Shown piece after piece: positions 10,099-36,394 of a DNA stretch of 40,121 nucleotides (its first letter is position 1; every line of letters starts with the position of its first letter). The position numbers were made by a program, and so were the translations under genes. The stretch is taken from IMG/VR virus record IMGVR_UViG_3300046002_006166, positions 1 to 40,121 of that record; one strand, 5' to 3'. This DNA is from a virus. A model generated the notes under the pieces. It was not told the origin of the DNA. It did not search any database and saw only the letters and a list, made by a program, of their open reading frames with translations.

Positions 10099-10127
10099 AA
10101 AAAAGGGGGTAACACCCCTTTTTTTTT
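10099..10127 (+). terminator. Rho-independent terminator after late-type block
   Basis: The sequence shows A6-GGGG, a six-base loop, CCCC and then T9, giving a stem of about ten pairs ending in a T-run on the plus strand. It separates the 9141-10080 unit from gp32 and marks the left border of the replication island. The A-run allows weak action on the minus strand too. Confidence 0.85.
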
Positions 10128-10184
10128 CTGATAAAGTTACCTATCATTGTTATGTAATATTGTTGTAAACAAAAACTATATAAT

Positions 10185-11042
10185 ATGTCAAATTTAGATG
10201 CCATAATGGCGCAGTATGAAAAAAACCAAAAAGGGGACTCCCAAAAATTATCGCAAGAGGACAGAATGAAACGTTATTTTACGTTATTGCTTTCTGACAA
10301 AGAAAACACAGGACAAAGGAGAATTAGGATTTTGCCTACAACTGATGGATCATCTGTATTTAAGGAGACTTGGTTTCATGAATTACAAGTTGGGGGGTAT
10401 TATCAAAAGATTTATGACCCAGCAGGTAATGACAATGAGGCATCCCCATTGAATGATGTTTACCATGCGTTGAAAGCAACCAAACGCAAAGATGATGATG
10501 AATTAGCCAAAGATTATAAGGCTAAACTATTTTATGTTGTTAAGGTTATTGATAGAGACAAGGAAGAAGAAGGGCCAAAGTATTGGAGATTTAAGCACAA
10601 TTATAAGAAGGATGGTATTTTAGACAAGATGATACCAATCTTCAGAAACAAGGGGGATATTTCTGATATTGATAATGGGAGAGATTTGATTATTGAGTTA
10701 GTAAAGTCAAAAAGCCCAAAAGGAAAGGAATATACAAGTGTTTCCACAATTATGTATGATGACCCAACACCTATATCTACAGATGCTAATTTAGCAAAAA
10801 AATGGGTAGACGATGAATCTACTTGGAGAGATGTTTATAGTAGAAAACCAGTAGAATATCTTGAAGCAATTTCAAGAGGGGAATCCCCAAGATGGGATGA
10901 ATCCCAAGGTAAGTATGTTTATTTAAACACATCAAATTCTGAAGCATCCTTTGGTGGGGCAACTGTTGCAAAAAACGCAACAGTTAAAGAAACAAATGTG
11001 GTTGTTGAGGATGACTACAATGATGATGAATTACCATTCTAA
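10185..11042 (+). CDS. 32: Single-stranded DNA-binding protein, T4 gp32-like
   Basis: This 285-residue protein coats single-stranded DNA at the replication fork and during recombination. It has the gp32 layout. The N-terminus is basic. The core holds RRIRILP, KLFYVVKVIDR and YWRFKHNYKKDGILDKM, the OB-fold strands shared by gp32 proteins, plus RDLIIELVKSKSPKGKEYTS. The C-terminal tail is acidic. Two points are odd. I find no cysteine at all, so the His/Cys zinc site of T4 gp32 is absent. The last residues are DDDELPF, which resembles the DDDIPF tip of bacterial SSB rather than the T4 tail. The gene follows a terminator and lacks the TATTTAT box, so it probably uses a different, early promoter. 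The leader ends ATAATATG with no Shine-Dalgarno. Confidence 0.88.
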   Translation: MSNLDAIMAQYEKNQKGDSQKLSQEDRMKRYFTLLLSDKENTGQRRIRILPTTDGSSVFKETWFHELQVGGYYQKIYDPAGNDNEASPLNDVYHALKATKRKDDDELAKDYKAKLFYVVKVIDRDKEEEGPKYWRFKHNYKKDGILDKMIPIFRNKGDISDIDNGRDLIIELVKSKSPKGKEYTSVSTIMYDDPTPISTDANLAKKWVDDESTWRDVYSRKPVEYLEAISRGESPRWDESQGKYVYLNTSNSEASFGGATVAKNATVKETNVVVEDDYNDDELPF

Positions 11043-11057
11043 TTAAACTAAAATAGA

Positions 11058-11100
11058 TTTTTTGCGCAAAGTATTGTTTTATGGTACTTTGTGCAAAAAA
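11058..11100 (+). promoter_or_regulatory. Long hairpin between gp32 and uvsX
   Basis: Two 16-base arms (11058-11073 and 11085-11100) can pair with one G-T wobble around an 11-base loop. The core is GCGCAAAGTA against TACTTTGTGC. The outer pairs are T6 on the left and A6 on the right, the reverse of a normal terminator, and no T-run follows directly. A leader or 3' UTR regulatory structure, or an RNA processing site, fits better. gp32 in T4 is under RNA-structure control, so a similar role is conceivable. Confidence 0.6.
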
Positions 11101-11125
11101 TATCTTTTCTTAAAAAAAATATAAT

Positions 11126-15056: not shown

Positions 15057-16034
15057 ATGAAGAACATTTTTGAAAAGAGGGTAAATATTTTGCCTTATGA
15101 ATATCCATCTTTATTAGCATATAAGGATGCTATAAGACATGCTTACTGGTTGCACAGTGAATTTAATTTCACAACTGATATTGATGACTATAAAACAAAA
15201 ATATCAAATGAGGAGAGGGAAGTTATTAAAAGGTCAATGTTGGCTATTGCACAAATTGAGGTGAATGTCAAAACATTCTGGGCTGACTTATACAAGAGAA
15301 TGCCAATAACTGAAATTGGTGATGTTGGTATGACGTTCTCCGAAAGCGAAGTTCGACACAAGGATGCTTATGCACAATTATTACGAATTCTTGGATTAGA
15401 AGATGAGTTTAAATCAGTTATTGAAATCCCTGCCATAAAGAATAGAATTAGTTATCTATCAAAATATTTGGATGGTACAAGGAGTAAGGAGAATAAAATG
15501 TACACAAAGTCTATATTGTTGTTCTCATTATTTATTGAACATGTGAGTTTATTTAGCCAGTTTTTAATTATGATGTCCTTTAACAAGGAGAAAAATCTAT
15601 TCAAGGGTATTTCAAATGTGGTTGAGGCAACCTCAAAGGAGGAAGAAATTCATGGTAATTTTGGTTCAGAACTTATCAATATTATCAAGGAAGAAAACCC
15701 AGAATGGTTTGATGCTGAATTTGAGGAATTGATTGTTTCTGCTTGTCATAAAGCATATGCTGCTGAATGTGGAATACTAGATTGGATATTTGAAAATGGT
15801 GAATTAAGTTTCTTATCAAAAGATACAATTAAACATTTCATTCAGAATAGATTTAACAACTCATTAAGTAGAATTGGAATGAAGCCAGTATTTGAGGTTG
15901 ATTTTACAGAGATTGAGAAGACGTTATGGTTTGATGTGGAGATTTTATCAACAAAGGAGGGGGATTTCTTCTATAAGAAATCGGTGGATTATAATAAAAA
16001 AAGCAAGAGCATAACAGAAGATGATTTATTTTAA
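15057..16034 (+). CDS. nrdB: Class I ribonucleotide reductase small subunit
   Basis: This radical-carrying subunit is needed for making deoxyribonucleotides. The metal site can be read: Glu68 (IAQIEVNVKTFW), Glu98 and His101 with Tyr105 in SESEVRHKDAYAQLL (E-x2-H-x3-Y), Glu161 (FIEHVSLF), and Glu196 with His199 in TSKEEEIHG. The first ligand is Glu rather than the Asp of the E. coli enzyme, a feature I associate with Bacteroidota-type (manganese, subclass Id) proteins. The Id call is an inference. The protein is 325 residues long, has no N-terminal ATP-cone and ends in TEDDLF, where the tail would dock on NrdA. nrdA starts 12 bases downstream. Confidence 0.92.
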   Translation: MKNIFEKRVNILPYEYPSLLAYKDAIRHAYWLHSEFNFTTDIDDYKTKISNEEREVIKRSMLAIAQIEVNVKTFWADLYKRMPITEIGDVGMTFSESEVRHKDAYAQLLRILGLEDEFKSVIEIPAIKNRISYLSKYLDGTRSKENKMYTKSILLFSLFIEHVSLFSQFLIMMSFNKEKNLFKGISNVVEATSKEEEIHGNFGSELINIIKEENPEWFDAEFEELIVSACHKAYAAECGILDWIFENGELSFLSKDTIKHFIQNRFNNSLSRIGMKPVFEVDFTEIEKTLWFDVEILSTKEGDFFYKKSVDYNKKSKSITEDDLF

Positions 16035-16046
16035 AAAACAAATATA

Positions 16047-17672
16047 ATGAATAAAGAAAAATATTATTGGTTAAATGATGAGAGTAGGCTTTTCTTATCA
16101 AGGGGGTATATTAGTGAAACCCCCGAGCAAAGGATTAAAGATATTGCTAATAAAGCAGAGGGGTATTTAAAAATTGATGGGTTTGCTGTTAAATTTGAGG
16201 AATATATGGCAAGGGGTTTTTATAGCCTTTCTACACCAGTATGGATTAATTTTGGTAAAGAAAAGGGGTTGCCTATATCCTGTTATGGATCCAATATTGA
16301 TGACACATTAGATAGCATTTTAAATGCTGGAAGAGAGATTGGTATGATGTCAAAATATGGTGGTGGAACTAGTGCTTATTTAGGTAATATTAGAGCAAGG
16401 GGAACTAAAATATCAACAGGTGGTACAGCAGATGGACCAGTTCATTATGCAAGGGTGTATGACACAGTAGTTGATGTATGCAAACAATCAGAGGCAAGAA
16501 GGGGTGCATGTGCAGTTTGGTTGCCAGTTGAACATGAGGATATTATGGAGTTTCTTGATATTGGATCAGAGGGCAATCCAATCCAGAATTTACAATATGG
16601 TGTTACTGTTACAGATAATTGGATTAATGATATGAAGGGGGGAGACCCAAGCAAGAGAAAGATATGGGCAAAAATTATTCAAAGACGTAATGAGTTTGGT
16701 TTTCCATATATTATGTTTAAGGATAACTCAAACAATAATTCCCCCTACAAAGAGTTGGGTATGGAGATAACTGCAAGTAACTTGTGTTCCGAAATTCAAT
16801 TGCCGACAGATTCATTAAACTCATTTGTTTGTTGTTTAGGTTCATTGAATTTACTTCATTGGGATGAGATAGTTGAGACTGATGCAATTGAGGTTTACAC
16901 AATGTTCTTAAATGCAGTTATGGATGAATTTATATTGAAGTCAGGTAAAATGGCTGGTATGAAAAGGGCTAATAGATTTGCATCACAGCATAGAGCAATT
17001 GGTTTGGGTGTTTTAGGATATCATTCATTATTTCAATCCAAGTTAATACCATTTGAATCTTTGATGGCAAAACAATTAAATCATCAAATATTTAAAATAA
17101 TTAAAGAGAAATCAGAATTGGCTTCAAAATATTTATATGAAGAGAAGGGATATAAATGTTTAAGAGAGGGTTATGCCAACACAACATTAATTGCTATTGC
17201 CCCAACCAAGTCAAGTTCATTTATTTTAGGGCAAGTAAGTATGGGTATTGAGCCAATCAAATCAAATTATTTTATTAAAGATTTGGCTAAATCAAAAACA
17301 ATTTATAAGAATCCATTTTTGGATATTGAATTGGATAAGTATGGTTTAAATACGCCAGAAACCTGGGAGAGTATTTTGAAGAAAGATGGATCAGTTCAGC
17401 ATTTGGATTTTCCCACAAAAGAGGTGTTTAAATCATTTATTGAAATATCACCAAAAGAATTGATATTACAAGCAGCACAGAGGCAAAAATTTATTGACCA
17501 ATCACAGTCATTAAATTTGATGATACATCCATCAGTTCCAGCAAAGGATATAAATCAATTATATCTATATGCTCATGAAGAGGGGGTTAAGACGCTTTAC
17601 TATCAGTTTAGCCAAAGTTCAGCACAATCATTTGCAAGAAATATTAATGAGTGTGTGAGTTGTGAATCGTAG
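16047..17672 (+). CDS. nrdA: Class I ribonucleotide reductase large subunit, without ATP-cone
   Basis: This 541-residue catalytic subunit reduces ribonucleotides. Visible landmarks are Cys79 (ISCYG), the triad Asn245/Cys247/Glu249 (ASNLCSEI), the partner Cys262/263 (VCCLGSLNL) and the radical-relay tyrosines Tyr518-Tyr519 (TLYYQF). A C-terminal Cys536-x2-Cys539 pair (CVSC) accepts electrons from thioredoxin-type reductants. Many enzymes have a wider spacing there. The protein is about 220 residues shorter than E. coli NrdA and starts directly at the catalytic region, so the N-terminal ATP-cone, which lets dATP switch the enzyme off, is missing. That fits a phage enzyme that keeps working when dATP is high. 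It is coupled with nrdB (12-base gap) and ends before a terminator. Confidence 0.93.
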   Translation: MNKEKYYWLNDESRLFLSRGYISETPEQRIKDIANKAEGYLKIDGFAVKFEEYMARGFYSLSTPVWINFGKEKGLPISCYGSNIDDTLDSILNAGREIGMMSKYGGGTSAYLGNIRARGTKISTGGTADGPVHYARVYDTVVDVCKQSEARRGACAVWLPVEHEDIMEFLDIGSEGNPIQNLQYGVTVTDNWINDMKGGDPSKRKIWAKIIQRRNEFGFPYIMFKDNSNNNSPYKELGMEITASNLCSEIQLPTDSLNSFVCCLGSLNLLHWDEIVETDAIEVYTMFLNAVMDEFILKSGKMAGMKRANRFASQHRAIGLGVLGYHSLFQSKLIPFESLMAKQLNHQIFKIIKEKSELASKYLYEEKGYKCLREGYANTTLIAIAPTKSSSFILGQVSMGIEPIKSNYFIKDLAKSKTIYKNPFLDIELDKYGLNTPETWESILKKDGSVQHLDFPTKEVFKSFIEISPKELILQAAQRQKFIDQSQSLNLMIHPSVPAKDINQLYLYAHEEGVKTLYYQFSQSSAQSFARNINECVSCES

Positions 17673-27781: not shown

Positions 27782-28687
27782 ATGAGTGAATTTAACGTAT
27801 ATGCGCCAACACCTGGTAGTGGATGTTCAAGTTGGTTTAATCATGCAACTAGTGGTGATGCTTGTAATTCAATATTTTGCACAACAATACCAACAACTTG
27901 TGTGGGGGATTGTGATAAGTTATATGTGACAAACCAAAGAACTCCACAGAGAATAGAGATTAATGATATTATTTACATTGGGACAGATACTGGTTATGAG
28001 ATATTACCTGAAGGTTGGTATGTTAGCAGTACAAAGGGTACGGTATTCAATATTAATTCAAGTGGTGTTTTGATAAGTGTCAATACTTGTTCTGGTACAA
28101 CTTATGTTACAGATTTGGATGGGAATTATTATGGTACAGCTACCATTGGAACACAAACTTGGTTTACAGAAAATTTAAGAACAACAAGGTATAATAATGG
28201 TGCTGATATTCCAAATGTAACTAATAGTACAACTTGGAGTAATTTAACAATTGGTGCTTATTGTGCATATAATAATAATAATATTGATAATTGTTTTGGG
28301 TATTTGTATAATTTTTATGCAACAACTAATCTATGTCCAACCGAGTATAGAGTTCCCACATTGGCTGACTATGCAACTTTATCCACATATCTGGGGGGTA
28401 ATAGTATTTCAGGTGGGAAGATGAAAACAGAAGGAGTTGTATGGTGGGATAGCCCAAATGATGGGGCAACAAATACTAGTGGATTTAGTGGTTATCCAGC
28501 AGGTAGAAGAGTGTATAATGGTAATTTTAATTTCTTTGGGGAAACGGGTACTTTTTGGACTAATACAACAACTGGATGTATTGTTAATTTTGCCAAAATA
28601 ATTCAATTAAAATATAATAATAATAATTTGGATTTCCAATGTGATGATAAAAACAATGGGTATTCGGTTAGATGTATAAAAAATTAA
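27782..28687 (+). CDS. FISUMP-domain protein, probable receptor-binding fibre tip (301 aa)
   Basis: Residues about 107-301 show the FISUMP (Fibrobacter succinogenes major paralogous) pattern: DLDGNYYGTATIGTQTWF, then TENLRTTRYNNGADIP, YCAYNNN and a YLYNFYA segment. It ends with GYSVRCIKN, the usual closing of this C-type-lectin-like fold. The domain is common on Bacteroidota surfaces and in their phages, where ligand binding is the likely role. Residues 1-106 hold a Cys-rich beta segment (GDACNSIFCTTIPTTCVGDC), possibly disulfide-bearing. It starts two bases after the stalk gene's stop, which suggests that the two assemble as stalk and head. The function is inferred; the domain is clear. Confidence 0.82.
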   Translation: MSEFNVYAPTPGSGCSSWFNHATSGDACNSIFCTTIPTTCVGDCDKLYVTNQRTPQRIEINDIIYIGTDTGYEILPEGWYVSSTKGTVFNINSSGVLISVNTCSGTTYVTDLDGNYYGTATIGTQTWFTENLRTTRYNNGADIPNVTNSTTWSNLTIGAYCAYNNNNIDNCFGYLYNFYATTNLCPTEYRVPTLADYATLSTYLGGNSISGGKMKTEGVVWWDSPNDGATNTSGFSGYPAGRRVYNGNFNFFGETGTFWTNTTTGCIVNFAKIIQLKYNNNNLDFQCDDKNNGYSVRCIKN

Positions 28688-31239: not shown

Positions 31240-34205
31240 TGCCAAAAATAATTATAACAGATTCACCTGGTAGTGGGGTTGGAGTTTTTGATAATATTGT
31301 TGGACTTCAAGTTACTGAAGGAGGGGGGTTAACGCTTGGAACTTTTGAGTTTAGGTCATCCATAACAGATGATGCCCCTATTACTTTATATGTTAATTCA
31401 TTTAGTAATCCAATAACTCTTGAATCTTTAAGTATTGATAATAATAGTAGTTTTAGGGAATTAGTTTCAAAGGAATTAAATGTTTACCCCAACTATGATT
31501 TGACCCAAGTTATGGGGTTTACCTTATATGGATCATTGGCAAAAAGATTTTCAGTATCTATAACAAAAATAATAAATTATTATCCAGCATCAATTGATAT
31601 AAATTTATATGATATTAATTTTAGTACAGGATATACAGCAACAAATATTTTATATGACCAAGTTTTAAATGAAACTGAATTTGATATAAATATTGAAAAA
31701 ATATATAACCCATTTGGAATTGATTTTTCTAAAAATGCTGAAACTAATATAAAATCTAGGGAAATTGCTATTTCAGAATATAGAAATTTATCAAAATTTT
31801 ATTTGGATTATGATTTGCAATTAAATGGGGTAAATTATCCCTTGTTAAATTTGGATAAATCAAATAATCTTAATACTGGGGTGTTAAAGATTATTGTTGA
31901 AGGTAATCCATTTTCTGGGGGTTCTCAATCAGTTGATTCTTATATCATCAAGCCAAATGATTATTTGTATAATTTGGTATTAAAAACTGATTTTGATGAG
32001 ATTGAGCAATATATGCTAAATACCATATCCATACCAAAATATACTATGACTTTACAAGTCCCAGAAGAAAATATCAATGGGGAATTTTTGGTATATAATA
32101 GGGATATTACATTTCCATTAGATGGTATTTGGAATATTGACATTTCAAGTTCAAGTTTCACCAATTATATAAATGAATTACAAGAAATTGCAGAATACTT
32201 TGATAGTGTTAGGACAAATTTAATTTCAAGATTTTTGGTTTCAGACTCTTTGAAAGAATTTGATACATTTGACAGAAGGGTTGAAAGTGTTTTACAGATA
32301 TATGGTAGAAGTTTTGATGAAGTTAAGAAGTTTATTGATTCTCTTGCTTTTATGAATTCTGTTAATTATACCCCAAAAAATGATATACCATCACAATTAT
32401 TATCAAATTTGGCAAATACATTAGGTTGGGCAGAGAATTTCCAATTTATAACGGATCAGACTTTAGTTGAATCTTTATTTGGAAATAATAGTGATTTTAA
32501 ATTTCCAGCATATAATCGTTCACAAACTCCATTAGAATTAAACTATTCTTTTTATAGAAATTTGGTTATAAATTCATTTTACCTTTTCAAATCCAAGGGG
32601 ACAAGAAAATCCATTGAGTTTATTCTTAAATTATTTGGCATACCAGATGCATTAATAGAATTTAATGAACATATTTATTTGGCTGACCAAAAAATAAATT
32701 TAGATAAATTTAATTCTGAATTAGTTAAAATTAATACTGGGTCATATATTGATAATGATCCAATTGTATTAAGTACAACATATCCACTTTCAGGTAGAAC
32801 ATATAGTGCATTTACAGCAAATACCAGAATTGTAAATACCACTAAAGTTAATTACCCCCTTGATGTGACAACAGGTTATCCACAGATAAAAGAAACAGAT
32901 GATTTTTTCTTTCAGATGGGGGCAGGTTGGTATCAATTAACTCCTGAACATAGAAGTTTACAAGTTAATACCAGAAGGCAAGTTGGGACTGAAATAACTT
33001 ATGGGGTTGAATTTGAGAAATTAACGTATGGTGAAAAATATTTGGATAGGTTAAGGAAATTTCCATACATTGATGAGGGGTTTAGTTTGGAGAAAGTTAT
33101 TGATAATAAAAAATCTTGGAATAGTTCTAATTTATTATTAAGAAATTCATCTGATGGGGATTATAATGCTTATTATACTTTACCAGATGAGAGATTATTG
33201 TTAAATGTAAAAAATGTTAGTTTATTTTTAAATCCAGCACAAGGATTGCTTTATGATATATGGGTTCAATCAAGAGAAAAGGATTACCCAATTCCGCAAT
33301 CTGGATTAACATATCCTTATCCTACAACTGGGGGAACAGATTCAACCATAATTAATCCACAACCAAAATCAAAATCATTTTTTGAATTTGCTCAAACTTT
33401 TGCAAATGATATGATTAATGTTAGGAATAGGTTATACATCACAGATGGTAAAACCGGGGGATATCCAGTATTACAATCCATATTTTGGAAATATATTGAA
33501 GCAAAGATAACTAATAATATTGATACCAATCAATATACTTATGATAAATTAATTGAATATGTGAATGGGATTAACCCAAATTGGATTAATCTTGTTGAAC
33601 AAATGATTCCAGCAACAACATTATGGATGGGGGGTGTTAAATATGAGAATTCACCATTTCATAGACAAAAATATGCATATAAAAGATTTAGTATAACTGG
33701 AGGAACATCACCACAAGTGATAACAACAGGCAATGGTGTTGTGGTATTTGGTTTAACATCAATTGCAGATGGAGACGAGTATATCACTTCACCAATATTT
33801 AAAGATATATGCGATAAAAATAATATTAATCTTCTAGTTTATCCATCAAAATCATTTAATGATATTTTGGGTGATAGTATTTCAGAGGCAAAACTTGATT
33901 TTAGTGATACATGTTCTAGTGATAATGTATTGACAACTTGGTATGTTGAAATAATATTAAATAATACAATAGTATCCAAAGTTGAGTTTTATAATGGTTT
34001 GGGTAGTGATGATGTTCCTACTAGTTCTGCTTGGAATTCAGCAGTTTTAACAGGATTAGAAGGGGTGACCAAATATGATATAAATTATTCTTTACCAAAC
34101 AATAACAATGTTACTTTTGTTGATTTTGCTTGCAACAATGAAAATACATATGATAGTACATTGGTGATAAACGTTGGTATTGATATAACTTTAATTTGCG
34201 AATAA
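31239..34205 (+). CDS. 7: Baseplate wedge protein, gp7/gpI (P2 tail protein I) type
   Basis: The 988 residues are near T4 gp7's length (1032). The central part at about 310-470 has the gpI pattern: YINELQEIAEYFDSVRTNLI, then LLSNLANTLGWAENF, and YRNLVINSFYLFKSKGTRKS followed by IEFILKLFGIP. The 'kGT-r-x-i-e' turn is the mark of tail protein I. T4 gp7 is generally treated as the counterpart of P2 gpI, and gp6 as that of gpJ, so with gp25, gp6 and gp53 the wedge set appears complete. The C-terminal part, past about residue 830, turns into beta sequence with a Cys-containing adhesin-like end, possibly a fibre attachment. It couples to its neighbours by TAATG overlaps on both sides. Assignment is by pattern, not alignment. 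Confidence 0.65.
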   Translation: MPKIIITDSPGSGVGVFDNIVGLQVTEGGGLTLGTFEFRSSITDDAPITLYVNSFSNPITLESLSIDNNSSFRELVSKELNVYPNYDLTQVMGFTLYGSLAKRFSVSITKIINYYPASIDINLYDINFSTGYTATNILYDQVLNETEFDINIEKIYNPFGIDFSKNAETNIKSREIAISEYRNLSKFYLDYDLQLNGVNYPLLNLDKSNNLNTGVLKIIVEGNPFSGGSQSVDSYIIKPNDYLYNLVLKTDFDEIEQYMLNTISIPKYTMTLQVPEENINGEFLVYNRDITFPLDGIWNIDISSSSFTNYINELQEIAEYFDSVRTNLISRFLVSDSLKEFDTFDRRVESVLQIYGRSFDEVKKFIDSLAFMNSVNYTPKNDIPSQLLSNLANTLGWAENFQFITDQTLVESLFGNNSDFKFPAYNRSQTPLELNYSFYRNLVINSFYLFKSKGTRKSIEFILKLFGIPDALIEFNEHIYLADQKINLDKFNSELVKINTGSYIDNDPIVLSTTYPLSGRTYSAFTANTRIVNTTKVNYPLDVTTGYPQIKETDDFFFQMGAGWYQLTPEHRSLQVNTRRQVGTEITYGVEFEKLTYGEKYLDRLRKFPYIDEGFSLEKVIDNKKSWNSSNLLLRNSSDGDYNAYYTLPDERLLLNVKNVSLFLNPAQGLLYDIWVQSREKDYPIPQSGLTYPYPTTGGTDSTIINPQPKSKSFFEFAQTFANDMINVRNRLYITDGKTGGYPVLQSIFWKYIEAKITNNIDTNQYTYDKLIEYVNGINPNWINLVEQMIPATTLWMGGVKYENSPFHRQKYAYKRFSITGGTSPQVITTGNGVVVFGLTSIADGDEYITSPIFKDICDKNNINLLVYPSKSFNDILGDSISEAKLDFSDTCSSDNVLTTWYVEIILNNTIVSKVEFYNGLGSDDVPTSSAWNSAVLTGLEGVTKYDINYSLPNNNNVTFVDFACNNENTYDSTLVINVGIDITLICE

Positions 34206-36394
34206 TGGCAGCATTTGATTATTTTTTGAGTTTAACAGGCGACTGCACTAATACAAATTCTGGTGCAATACTTCTTGAATTAAGTGGAGGAACGCCACCT
34301 TATAGTATTGAATTTATTAATCCATATATTGATAGTACCCCTTATATAACAATAACTGAACCAGTATTAATTACAAGTTTATCAGCAACAACTTATGGGG
34401 TTAGAGTGAATGATTCAACTGCTCCAGATAATTTAGAATTTTATTTAAATATTCCAATATCTAGTGGAGTTTGTACCTCAATATTGTCAACAATCAATTC
34501 AACATGTGGGGATTCAAATGGTTCAGTAACTGGAACAACAACATCTCTATTTTCAACAACAGATTGTTATTTATATACTAGTGGAAATACCTTAATATCA
34601 AACAATATTTTTAATTCGGAGGAAATTATTTTTGAAAATTTAAGTGCAGACACTTATTATATTTATGTTGAAGATATTGGGGGTTGTACAGCAAAAACAG
34701 AAAATTTTATAATAAAAAATTCCACATCATTTGATTATGGTTATTTTATTGTTAAAAATTCACCTTGCTTTACTGGATCAACAGGTGCAATATACATAAC
34801 AGGTCAAACAAATCCTGGGCCTTATAGTTATTTTTGGAACAATGGAGCAACTGGGAATACAATCACAAATTTACCCACAGATTCTTATTCTGTTAGTGTT
34901 ACAGATGGTCAAGGCTGTGTTAACACCAAAATAATTATAGTTGAAGAGGCAGAATCTATGGGATTATTACAGATAATTCCCACACAACCATCATGCTTTA
35001 CTGCAACAGGTTCTTTAGACGTTACCATTAGTGGAGGTACTGCGCCATATTATTTTTCAGCAAGTACAGGATTTTATGATATAACATATAGTAATAACAT
35101 TGTGATTACTGGATTAACATCTGGTACTTATGACATAAGGGTTATAGATGGTGCATTATGTTCACTTGATATTACAACAAGTTTAGTTAGTGAAAATTCT
35201 GTTTCAAGCGTTGAATTTATTGGAACAAATTCATTATGTGGCTCATCTAATGGGATTATATCAATTAATATATTGGGGGGAACTGGACCATATACTTATG
35301 GGTTAATTCAACCAAGTGGGGATACAATAACAAATACCACAACTTCAACAAATTATTTATTTACCAATTTAGGAACTGGTACATATACAGTTTATATGCA
35401 AGATTCTTCAGGTTGTTACTATGATGAAGAAGTGACAATTATTGCTGAAGATAAATTTGAATTAAATTATTCATTAACTGGGACAACTTGTAATTCAAAC
35501 AATGGTACTCTTTTTGCATATATTACAACAGGGGGCACACCCCCATACGATTTTTATTTGGATGATGTAAATAGCATTTTAGATACAAATTTAACAGGAT
35601 ATACTTTTACAAATTTAAGAGATGGGAATAAGACTTTAAGAGTTATTGATTCAACTGGTTGTGAGCAGATAAAAGTATTAACAATACCCACAAGTAATTA
35701 TTTGGATTTTTCATTATATCCAACATCATGTGTGAATGGTAATGATGGTACAATAACAGCTTTGATAACTGATGGGTTGCCACCTTTTACATACACTTGG
35801 TCAAGTAATGTATCTGGTAATCCACAATCAATATCAGCAACTGGGTTAACTAGTGGTGATTATTCATTAACAATTGTGGATAATAATGGTTGTTCATTAA
35901 CCAGAGATGTAAGTATAAGTTGTTTTAGTACAGTAAAGTCGTATCAAACATACATTGTTGATTCAAAAGTATTTGGGATAAATTCAATAAATAAATTTGG
36001 ATTATTAGATTTCTTGAATGAGGGCTTTAGTGATTTGGTGAATATGGAGTTTAGTGGATCAACCACTATAATCGATCCAAAATGTAATTTAAACTCAGCA
36101 ATCTTCACAACAGAATATACGTTAGAACCAAGTGGTATCACAAGTGGAAATACATTCTACACAGGATATACAAGAACAGATGTTCCAACAGATTCGGTTT
36201 ATGCAGAATCCATAGTTGATTTGTTGGCTGGTAATACCCTAAAAGGATTACTTGGAATCCCAGGAATACAGAGTGTGTCTTATGACTTAATAACAAATAC
36301 AATAAACATCATAGCAGAACCAGGAGATAGTATAACCTCACAAGTATTAACCATAAAATTGAAAATAGATTATGATATATCTTGTAAATTATGA
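34205..36394 (+). CDS. Adhesin-like fibre protein with seven SprB-type repeats (729 aa)
   Basis: The ATG at 34205 overlaps the upstream stop (TAATG); an in-frame TTG at 34196 is less likely. Residues about 13-572 are seven repeats of 75-90 residues that begin near Cys13, Cys101, Cys189, Cys263, Cys345, Cys429 and Cys509. Each follows the SprB layout: Cys, then NGS/NGT, then SGGTPPY or a variant, then a Gly-Thr-Tyr turn, then V-x-D-x-x-GC. An example is GGTGPYTYGLIQPSGD with VYMQDSSGCYYDE. SprB repeats form the gliding adhesin of flavobacteria. Residues about 573-729 form a separate C-terminal domain (GLLDFLNEGFSDLV, then PGDSITSQVLTIKLKIDYD). No signal peptide, so it is a phage part rather than a secreted adhesin. 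Host binding is inferred. Confidence 0.78.
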   Translation: MAAFDYFLSLTGDCTNTNSGAILLELSGGTPPYSIEFINPYIDSTPYITITEPVLITSLSATTYGVRVNDSTAPDNLEFYLNIPISSGVCTSILSTINSTCGDSNGSVTGTTTSLFSTTDCYLYTSGNTLISNNIFNSEEIIFENLSADTYYIYVEDIGGCTAKTENFIIKNSTSFDYGYFIVKNSPCFTGSTGAIYITGQTNPGPYSYFWNNGATGNTITNLPTDSYSVSVTDGQGCVNTKIIIVEEAESMGLLQIIPTQPSCFTATGSLDVTISGGTAPYYFSASTGFYDITYSNNIVITGLTSGTYDIRVIDGALCSLDITTSLVSENSVSSVEFIGTNSLCGSSNGIISINILGGTGPYTYGLIQPSGDTITNTTTSTNYLFTNLGTGTYTVYMQDSSGCYYDEEVTIIAEDKFELNYSLTGTTCNSNNGTLFAYITTGGTPPYDFYLDDVNSILDTNLTGYTFTNLRDGNKTLRVIDSTGCEQIKVLTIPTSNYLDFSLYPTSCVNGNDGTITALITDGLPPFTYTWSSNVSGNPQSISATGLTSGDYSLTIVDNNGCSLTRDVSISCFSTVKSYQTYIVDSKVFGINSINKFGLLDFLNEGFSDLVNMEFSGSTTIIDPKCNLNSAIFTTEYTLEPSGITSGNTFYTGYTRTDVPTDSVYAESIVDLLAGNTLKGLLGIPGIQSVSYDLITNTINIIAEPGDSITSQVLTIKLKIDYDISCKL

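Follow-up and report, generated by a model that had tools for sequence, protein, structure and literature searches.

A gp32-like single-stranded DNA-binding protein from a clade of uncultured phages ends in a conserved tip resembling that of bacterial SSB

The gp32-type single-stranded DNA-binding proteins of phages are classic examples of a self-contained phage replisome, and in T4 the protein works with the loader gp59. The SSB of E. coli ends in the tip DDDIPF, with Ile at position -3, while T7 gp2.5 has an essential terminal Phe and is not known to have an LPF tip. The C-domain of T4 gp32 interacts with other T4 replication proteins and also folds over the cleft that binds the DNA (PMC5892887, PMC11811875). 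Whereas E. coli SSB is tetrameric, the T4 protein is monomeric (PMC11811875). Typical docking sites for the SSB C-terminus (SSB-Ct) accommodate the terminal Phe in a hydrophobic pocket, with a basic lip facing the carboxylate and a basic ridge facing the Asp residues (PMC10164576). There, loss of the Phe or a Pro-to-Ser exchange abolishes or weakens binding, and the linker preceding the tip is poorly conserved. The tail of T7 gp2.5 has likewise been implicated in partner binding (PMC5686142). The literature searched, which excluded most subscription journals, yielded no description of a gp32 whose tip is of the SSB type.

The protein described here is encoded in the window, i.e., the whole stretch of 40,121 nucleotides that was analyzed (positions 1 to 40,121 of the IMG/VR record IMGVR_UViG_3300046002_006166). 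Its gene (10185..11042, plus strand, as are all features located below) starts with ATG and codes for a gp32-like protein of 285 residues. In Pfam it matches the gp32 family PF08804 with 28.8 bits against a cut-off of 26.8 (E 1.5e-6), the sole family matched at E <=0.1, and PHROG SSB families match it with E 8.4e-8 and 5.7e-6. An AlphaFold2 model built from 55 sequences has a mean pLDDT of 77.9 and a confident core. When this model was compared to the PDB with Foldseek, the top six hits were gp32 chains of RB69 or T4 (E 2.1e-9 to 4.6e-7, target TM-score 0.51-0.66). A PDB search with profile A1 returned nothing at E <=1, hhalign of alignment A2 against T4 gp32 gave 52% probability (E 1.5e-4) and the profile A3 of a longer form, introduced below, 1%. 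The fold thus matches gp32 but the sequence-only comparisons are much weaker, which makes the window protein a far relative of T4 gp32. It shares with the T4 and RB69 proteins (PF08804; 1GPC, 2A1K, 8GME) the fold, the Pfam family and a flexible acidic C-terminal end. Tblastn of two related loci against phages gave no match for L059 and Mel-JY01 alone for L063. A recruited bacterial SSB gene was considered and rejected, since the core is that of gp32 by Pfam and Foldseek and no PF00436 SSB OB-fold domain is found in the window; the carrier of the tip is therefore a gp32 core and not, as in bacterial SSB, a PF00436 OB fold. T7 gp2.5 and Enc34-type phage SSBs resemble the window protein in their acidic disordered tail and belong to an unrelated family.

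An N-terminal helix (residues 3-15, 10191..10229; modeled with low confidence at about 11-20) carries the motif LDAxxAQYE, conserved in alignment A2. It sits where T4 gp32 has its N-terminal cooperativity segment, and may have that role. The gp32 core spans residues ~24-245 (10254..10919), with pLDDT values of 74-94 over the ten-residue blocks from 21 to 240. Residues 249-285, the 37-residue tail, have a pLDDT below 50 and are predicted to be disordered; they comprise a hypervariable linker (residues ~249-279, 10929..11021) and the SSB-like tip DDELPF (residues 280-285, 11022..11039).

The gene lies between two terminator-like hairpins, one 5' of it (10099..10131, also delimited as 10099-10124; z -2.45) and one 3' of it (11057..11110, also delimited as 11057-11101; -22.2 kcal/mol, z -7.7), and is thus probably transcribed as a unit of its own. 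The latter, between the gp32 and recombinase genes, is highly stable with A-rich and T-rich arms, and is probably a terminator. Downstream follow genes for a UvsX/RecA-like protein, a 5'-3' exonuclease, a small ORF of unknown function, a DnaB-like helicase and NrdB/NrdA. Window gp32 and T4 gp32 both have a gene of the RNase H type in their vicinity. NrdB (15057-16034) ends in ITEDDLF, an acidic stretch with a terminal Phe; it occurs near the SSB-like tip, but is perhaps the normal R2 tail. NrdA (16047-17672, 541 residues) is most similar, among phage records, to those of Sinorhizobium phage Phosso (55%) and Agrobacterium phage Atu_ph07 (54%), with staphylococcal phages (~53% identity) also among the top-ranked records.

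The last eight residues of window gp32 are YNDDELPF. The initial annotation had given the end as DDDELPF, and its SSB-like character stands with one letter corrected, the real end being NDDELPF with N instead of D. It was right that T4 has a different tail: the sequence of the T4 record ends ...ADDTDLDDLLNDL, closing on DLDDLLNDL, whereas window gp32 closes on the SSB-type tip DELPF. As in the bacterial SSB-Ct (DDDIPF in E. coli, mostly DDLPF in Bacteroidia), a disordered variable linker leads via acidic residues to L-P-F-COOH. The tail thus has the sequence features of an SSB-Ct, i.e., a terminal Phe, a Pro before it, a hydrophobic residue at -3, acidic residues and a disordered tether. Among 25 large ORFs of the window, gp32 alone ends in PF.

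We then collected related loci. A search with the window protein, in which one of six patterns fell within the tail, yielded 62 viral loci that encode 36 distinct proteins, and 62/62 end in LPF. Core-pattern profile scans in which the tip was unused gave 68 viral loci and two from genomes, followed by 79 loci; the viral scans represent the best 80 of at least 592 and the best 80 of at least 571 confirmed matches, so that more distant relatives lie outside the count. A scan with L064 as query added 13 loci. Among the matches listed, 224/224 loci, with 168 distinct tails, end in [DEN][LM]PF. Pro and Phe are invariant in 168/168 of these listed tails; position -3 is Leu in 154 and Met in 14, and position -4 is Asp in 138, Glu in 28 and Asn in 2. 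The MPF tails (L293, L298, L301-L303 and others; 14 of the 168) belong to the short form, the window's kind, in every case. Ile at position -3 occurs in 0/168 distinct tails among the matches listed. In alignment A2 (55 sequences, down to 31% identity), which predates the discovery of the MPF forms, L283, P284 and F285 are three of 22 invariant columns.

Entropies along the tail are 0, 0, 0.41 and 0.74 bits at positions -1 to -4 and rise to 1.65-3.57 bits at -5 to -30. Beyond the last core motif, short-form proteins have 36-67 residues and long-form proteins 82-137, with the tip unchanged, and the last 15 residues hold a median of 5 acidic and 0 basic residues. The codons for the tip Leu, Pro and Phe vary synonymously across loci among the matches listed. 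A constant tip on a freely varying linker, together with synonymous codons, looks like purifying selection on the tail end. As a control, 601 other distinct ORFs of the same viral loci (at least 100 residues, both strands, hence partly not genes) contained one nominal match to the tip, itself a gp32 fragment, while 158/158 gp32-like ORFs of the same set end in PF. Judged from composition, any one protein end would match [DEN][ILVM]PF by chance with a probability of 4.9e-5. Unconserved ends among related gp32s, which the initial annotation had named as counting against its reading, were not found within the clade: Pro and Phe are constant, -3 is Leu or Met and -4 is Asp, Glu or Asn.

Outside the clade the picture is different. 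A PF end was found in 0/21 gp32s of other phage groups, a set hand-chosen for breadth that consists of 20 annotated gp32s including T4 and one unannotated record (LR756508), drawn from listings of which 3 of 3, 60 of 2410 and 60 of 63 records were available, plus T4. It comprises T4, RB49, CC2, Lazarus, F86, Syn1, S-CRM01, BUCT608, F371, CP220, 241, VAP7, RHph_I1_9, SPO1, LysYB2, EalM-132, nickie, ZHS, Mel-JY01, immuto and LR756508. The nearest end is that of the gp32 of Rhizobium phage RHph_I1_9 (L174), NDTPFD, an SSB-like tip with one extra residue that may be an independent approach to the motif. In a maximum-likelihood tree of 64 hand-picked rows, from which the last 30 residues had been cut so that the tip could not drive the topology, the 39 tip-bearing rows fall on one side of one branch with support 100/99, i.e., a single clade, and the tip amounts to one change in 100% of 200 bootstrap trees; the tree program flagged long branches.

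The gp32 of Flavobacterium phage immuto ends in FDDLFN, not PF, and thus a Bacteroidota host does not require the tip; immuto and its relatives led us to reject the idea that the tip is present in every Bacteroidota-phage gp32. The group of immuto and Mel-JY01 is gp32-like and, like window gp32, devoid of the H/C/CxxC motif, and immuto shares with the window the gene order gp32 - RecA-like - 5'-3' exonuclease. Their ends, FDDLFN and FDDLFNKD, are not PF, and they lie on a tree branch separate from the window clade. An FDDLFN end on a variable linker is common to immuto, its relatives (L161 and 14 loci from L319-L398) and Mel-JY01, and is possibly a second docking motif; the scan used that end as pattern, so that the ends are biased, and 14/80 loci were translated.

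The zinc site of T4 gp32 sets a further difference. No Cys is present in the 285 residues of window gp32, as the initial annotation had noticed, and judged from the Cys frequency of the 24 other window ORFs this has P = 0.07, so that it is weak evidence in one protein and becomes meaningful only across the clade. Among the matches listed, 153/167 short-form loci have 0 Cys, and 0/167 carry an H/C/CxxC zinc-type motif. In the long form (at least 340 residues), H-x(n)-C-x(n)-C-x2-C is present in 55/55 loci among the matches listed, with the same tip, and H59, C78, C111 and C114 are invariant in the 16 sequences of alignment A3; by analogy with T4, these residues are predicted to bind zinc. The corresponding region of the window gene is a remnant (10377..10418; alignments A1, A2 and A3), in which H65 is kept, D78 replaces the first Cys of the sister branch and the CxxC stretch is missing. 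L063, an early branch, has three Cys without the H/C/CxxC motif. Loss of the zinc motif thus occurred on the short branch, or repeatedly, and did not depend on the tip. As the sister branch combines motif and tip, loss of zinc as cause or partner of the tip was rejected. The T4-type His/Cys zinc site is therefore absent, as proposed, and its absence has nothing to do with the tip. Cys is likewise missing from the annotated gp32s of immuto, CP220 and BUCT608, so the zinc site is no strict criterion of the gp32 family.

SprB and Fib_succ_major domains are typical of Bacteroidota and relatives, and the window encodes both, a Fib_succ_major domain protein (27782..28687, PF09603, E 4.5e-36) and an SprB-repeat protein (34196..36394, PF13573, E 1.4e-28, five stretches). 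They lie downstream of baseplate genes, hinting at adhesin-like fibers shared with gliding Bacteroidota. SprB is found in 4/4 large short-form phage records (three over the cut-off) and Fib_succ_major in 2/4; neither is found in three long-form records, T4 or the genome behind L063. In 14 control genomes, Fib_succ_major was detected in Bacteroides ihuae only, and SprB in none, B. ihuae included, which leaves the host specificity of SprB presumptive. For the long form, the host group rests on one short contig, a 5.9-kb piece of a Bacteroidales metagenome-assembled genome (MAG) that holds the gp32 gene L064, its phage records being without SprB and Fib_succ_major. We conclude that the clade of uncultured phages probably infects Bacteroidota, and that the window is most likely a large phage with a Bacteroidota host. 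A separate case is L063 (L063 / L403-L404), a gp32 ending in DDLPF on the 84-kb contig QCKH01000004.1 from a single-cell assembly of Prochlorococcus, in which the cell's own SSB ends in NDIPF. The contig encodes relatives of 9/13 compared window proteins in the same order (31-50% identity) and is thus the same kind of phage; it may be a stowaway in the assembly, or it may truly infect the cyanobacterium, with a tip then not adapted to it. The phages matched in tblastn by DnaB and NrdA infect many different hosts and were uninformative in this respect, and no tRNAs were found in the window. The promoter motif TANNTTTG, tried as a host clue, occurs 97 times against 81 expected (sd 7.8; 1/100 shuffles reach 97) and was left unused.

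For the candidate host class, that of the Bacteroidales MAG, which we take to be Bacteroidia, 60 genomes were searched, and SSB ends were read from the best-scoring loci of 29 of them. LPF is found in 27/29, the others being STVF and KQGF; the class of Prochlorococcus has LPF in 0/29, DEF in 14 and IPF in two. The Bacteroidales MAG that holds L064 has two SSBs, ending in ADDELPF and DEIPF, and the former contains DDELPF, the tip of window gp32. The phage tip thus matches the SSB ends of the likely host class, Leu included. Streptococcus mutans SsbA ends in DDDLPF (PMC5143411); with LPF also present there, the match neither proves nor singles out the host.

Possible partners were sought among the phages' own genes. 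PF00436 SSB was found in none of six phage records of 102-326 kb. The gp59 C-domain, the PriA 3'-binding domain and UDG were found in none of seven phage records of 110-326 kb, and DNAG_N-type primase matches in 3/7; the search covered four families, genes may be missing from the records, and remote relatives may escape the models. The gp59 C-domain model detects T4, which served as control. Accordingly, a second bacterial-type SSB was not found and a T4-type loader is not detectable; gp59 lies near gene 32 in T4 and is not detectable in the seven records related to the window.

Taken at the level of sequence, the tip probably docks on SSB-tip pockets, most likely those of host SSB-interacting proteins, which is the direction in which the initial annotation had pointed when it proposed docking of host PriA, RecO and RecQ-type enzymes. 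Docking is favored because the tail follows the sequence rules of the SSB-Ct, and conservation in the clade and the LPF ends of the host class (27/29) speak for SSB-tip pockets as well. In window gp32, an SSB-style tail, a disordered linker followed by D-[DE]-L-P-F-COOH, takes the place of the acidic C-domain of the T4 type. The phage gp32 OB core would coat ssDNA and thereby present many copies of the tip, to be bound by pockets in which a hydrophobic hole takes up the terminal Phe and basic residues face the carboxylate and the acidic side chains. Candidate host partners are RecO, PriA, RecQ, RecG, primase and RNase HI, and such enzymes would thereby be brought to the phage DNA or diverted from host SSB. 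Binding of the tip, the identity of its partners and the gain for the phage are inferred.

The tip might instead dock the phage's own replication proteins (primase, helicase or loader, recombinase, polymerase), with the likeness to the host being convergent or derived from captured host-like enzymes. In T4 gp32 and T7 gp2.5, the acidic tail is implicated in contacts with the replication proteins of the respective phage (PMC5892887, PMC5686142), the gene lies beside UvsX-like, 5'-3' exonuclease and DnaB-like genes, and the DNAG_N matches in three of the seven records are of interest as E. coli DnaG interacts with SSB (PMC5872125). However, a PF end is missing from all 21 other gp32s, that of T4 among them, and the residue at -3 is mostly Leu as in SSBs of the likely host class; we regard this explanation as rather unlikely. 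A purely self-regulatory tip, folding back on the OB cleft in competition with ssDNA, would agree with the acidic tail end free of basic residues, with the fold-back model that is well supported for T4 gp32 (PMC5892887) and with the contact of the E. coli SSB tip to its own OB domain (PMC10164576). Yet electrostatic fold-back needs no invariant P-F end, which the 21 other gp32s do without, and the tip stays constant while the post-core length differs widely within and between the two forms, so that self-regulation alone seems improbable.

Still less credible is a role of LPF-COOH as a ClpXP proteolysis tag by which host or phage would control the gp32 level. The last three residues of SsbA, LPF, suffice for this in some S. 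mutans strains, but the same source reports that the signal goes unrecognized in E. coli, S. gordonii, S. sanguinis and three other S. mutans strains (PMC5143411), and in the phage tails the acidic -4 is conserved too, although LPF alone suffices in S. mutans; we consider it very improbable. Finally, the tip bearers in the tree form one clade, as would be expected if the tip reflected chance or shared ancestry without function. We give this next to no credence, as the tip is constant beside a free linker, with synonymous codons, and is missing from the 601 other ORFs save for the gp32 fragment; a chance origin in particular was rejected on the conservation over 224 loci and on this control.

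Docking on SSB-tip pockets of host proteins would have a wider consequence, which we put forward tentatively and at somewhat less than even chance: the gp32 clade may have been rewired from a phage-only network of the T4 type to the host SSB "hub code", the tip recruiting host repair, restart and priming enzymes and replacing a gp59-type loader as well as a phage-encoded bacterial-type SSB. If a conserved SSB docking peptide on gp32 is true, some large phages depend on host SSB-interacting proteins, and a nine-residue peptide with two point changes would be a simple handle on the host enzymes borrowed by such phages. It would also illustrate clearly how a short linear motif can converge on a bacterial hub. 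Should the hub-code reading hold, the tip would be a natural probe of the host SSB partners needed by the phage, and of how SSB-responsive defense systems see phage DNA.
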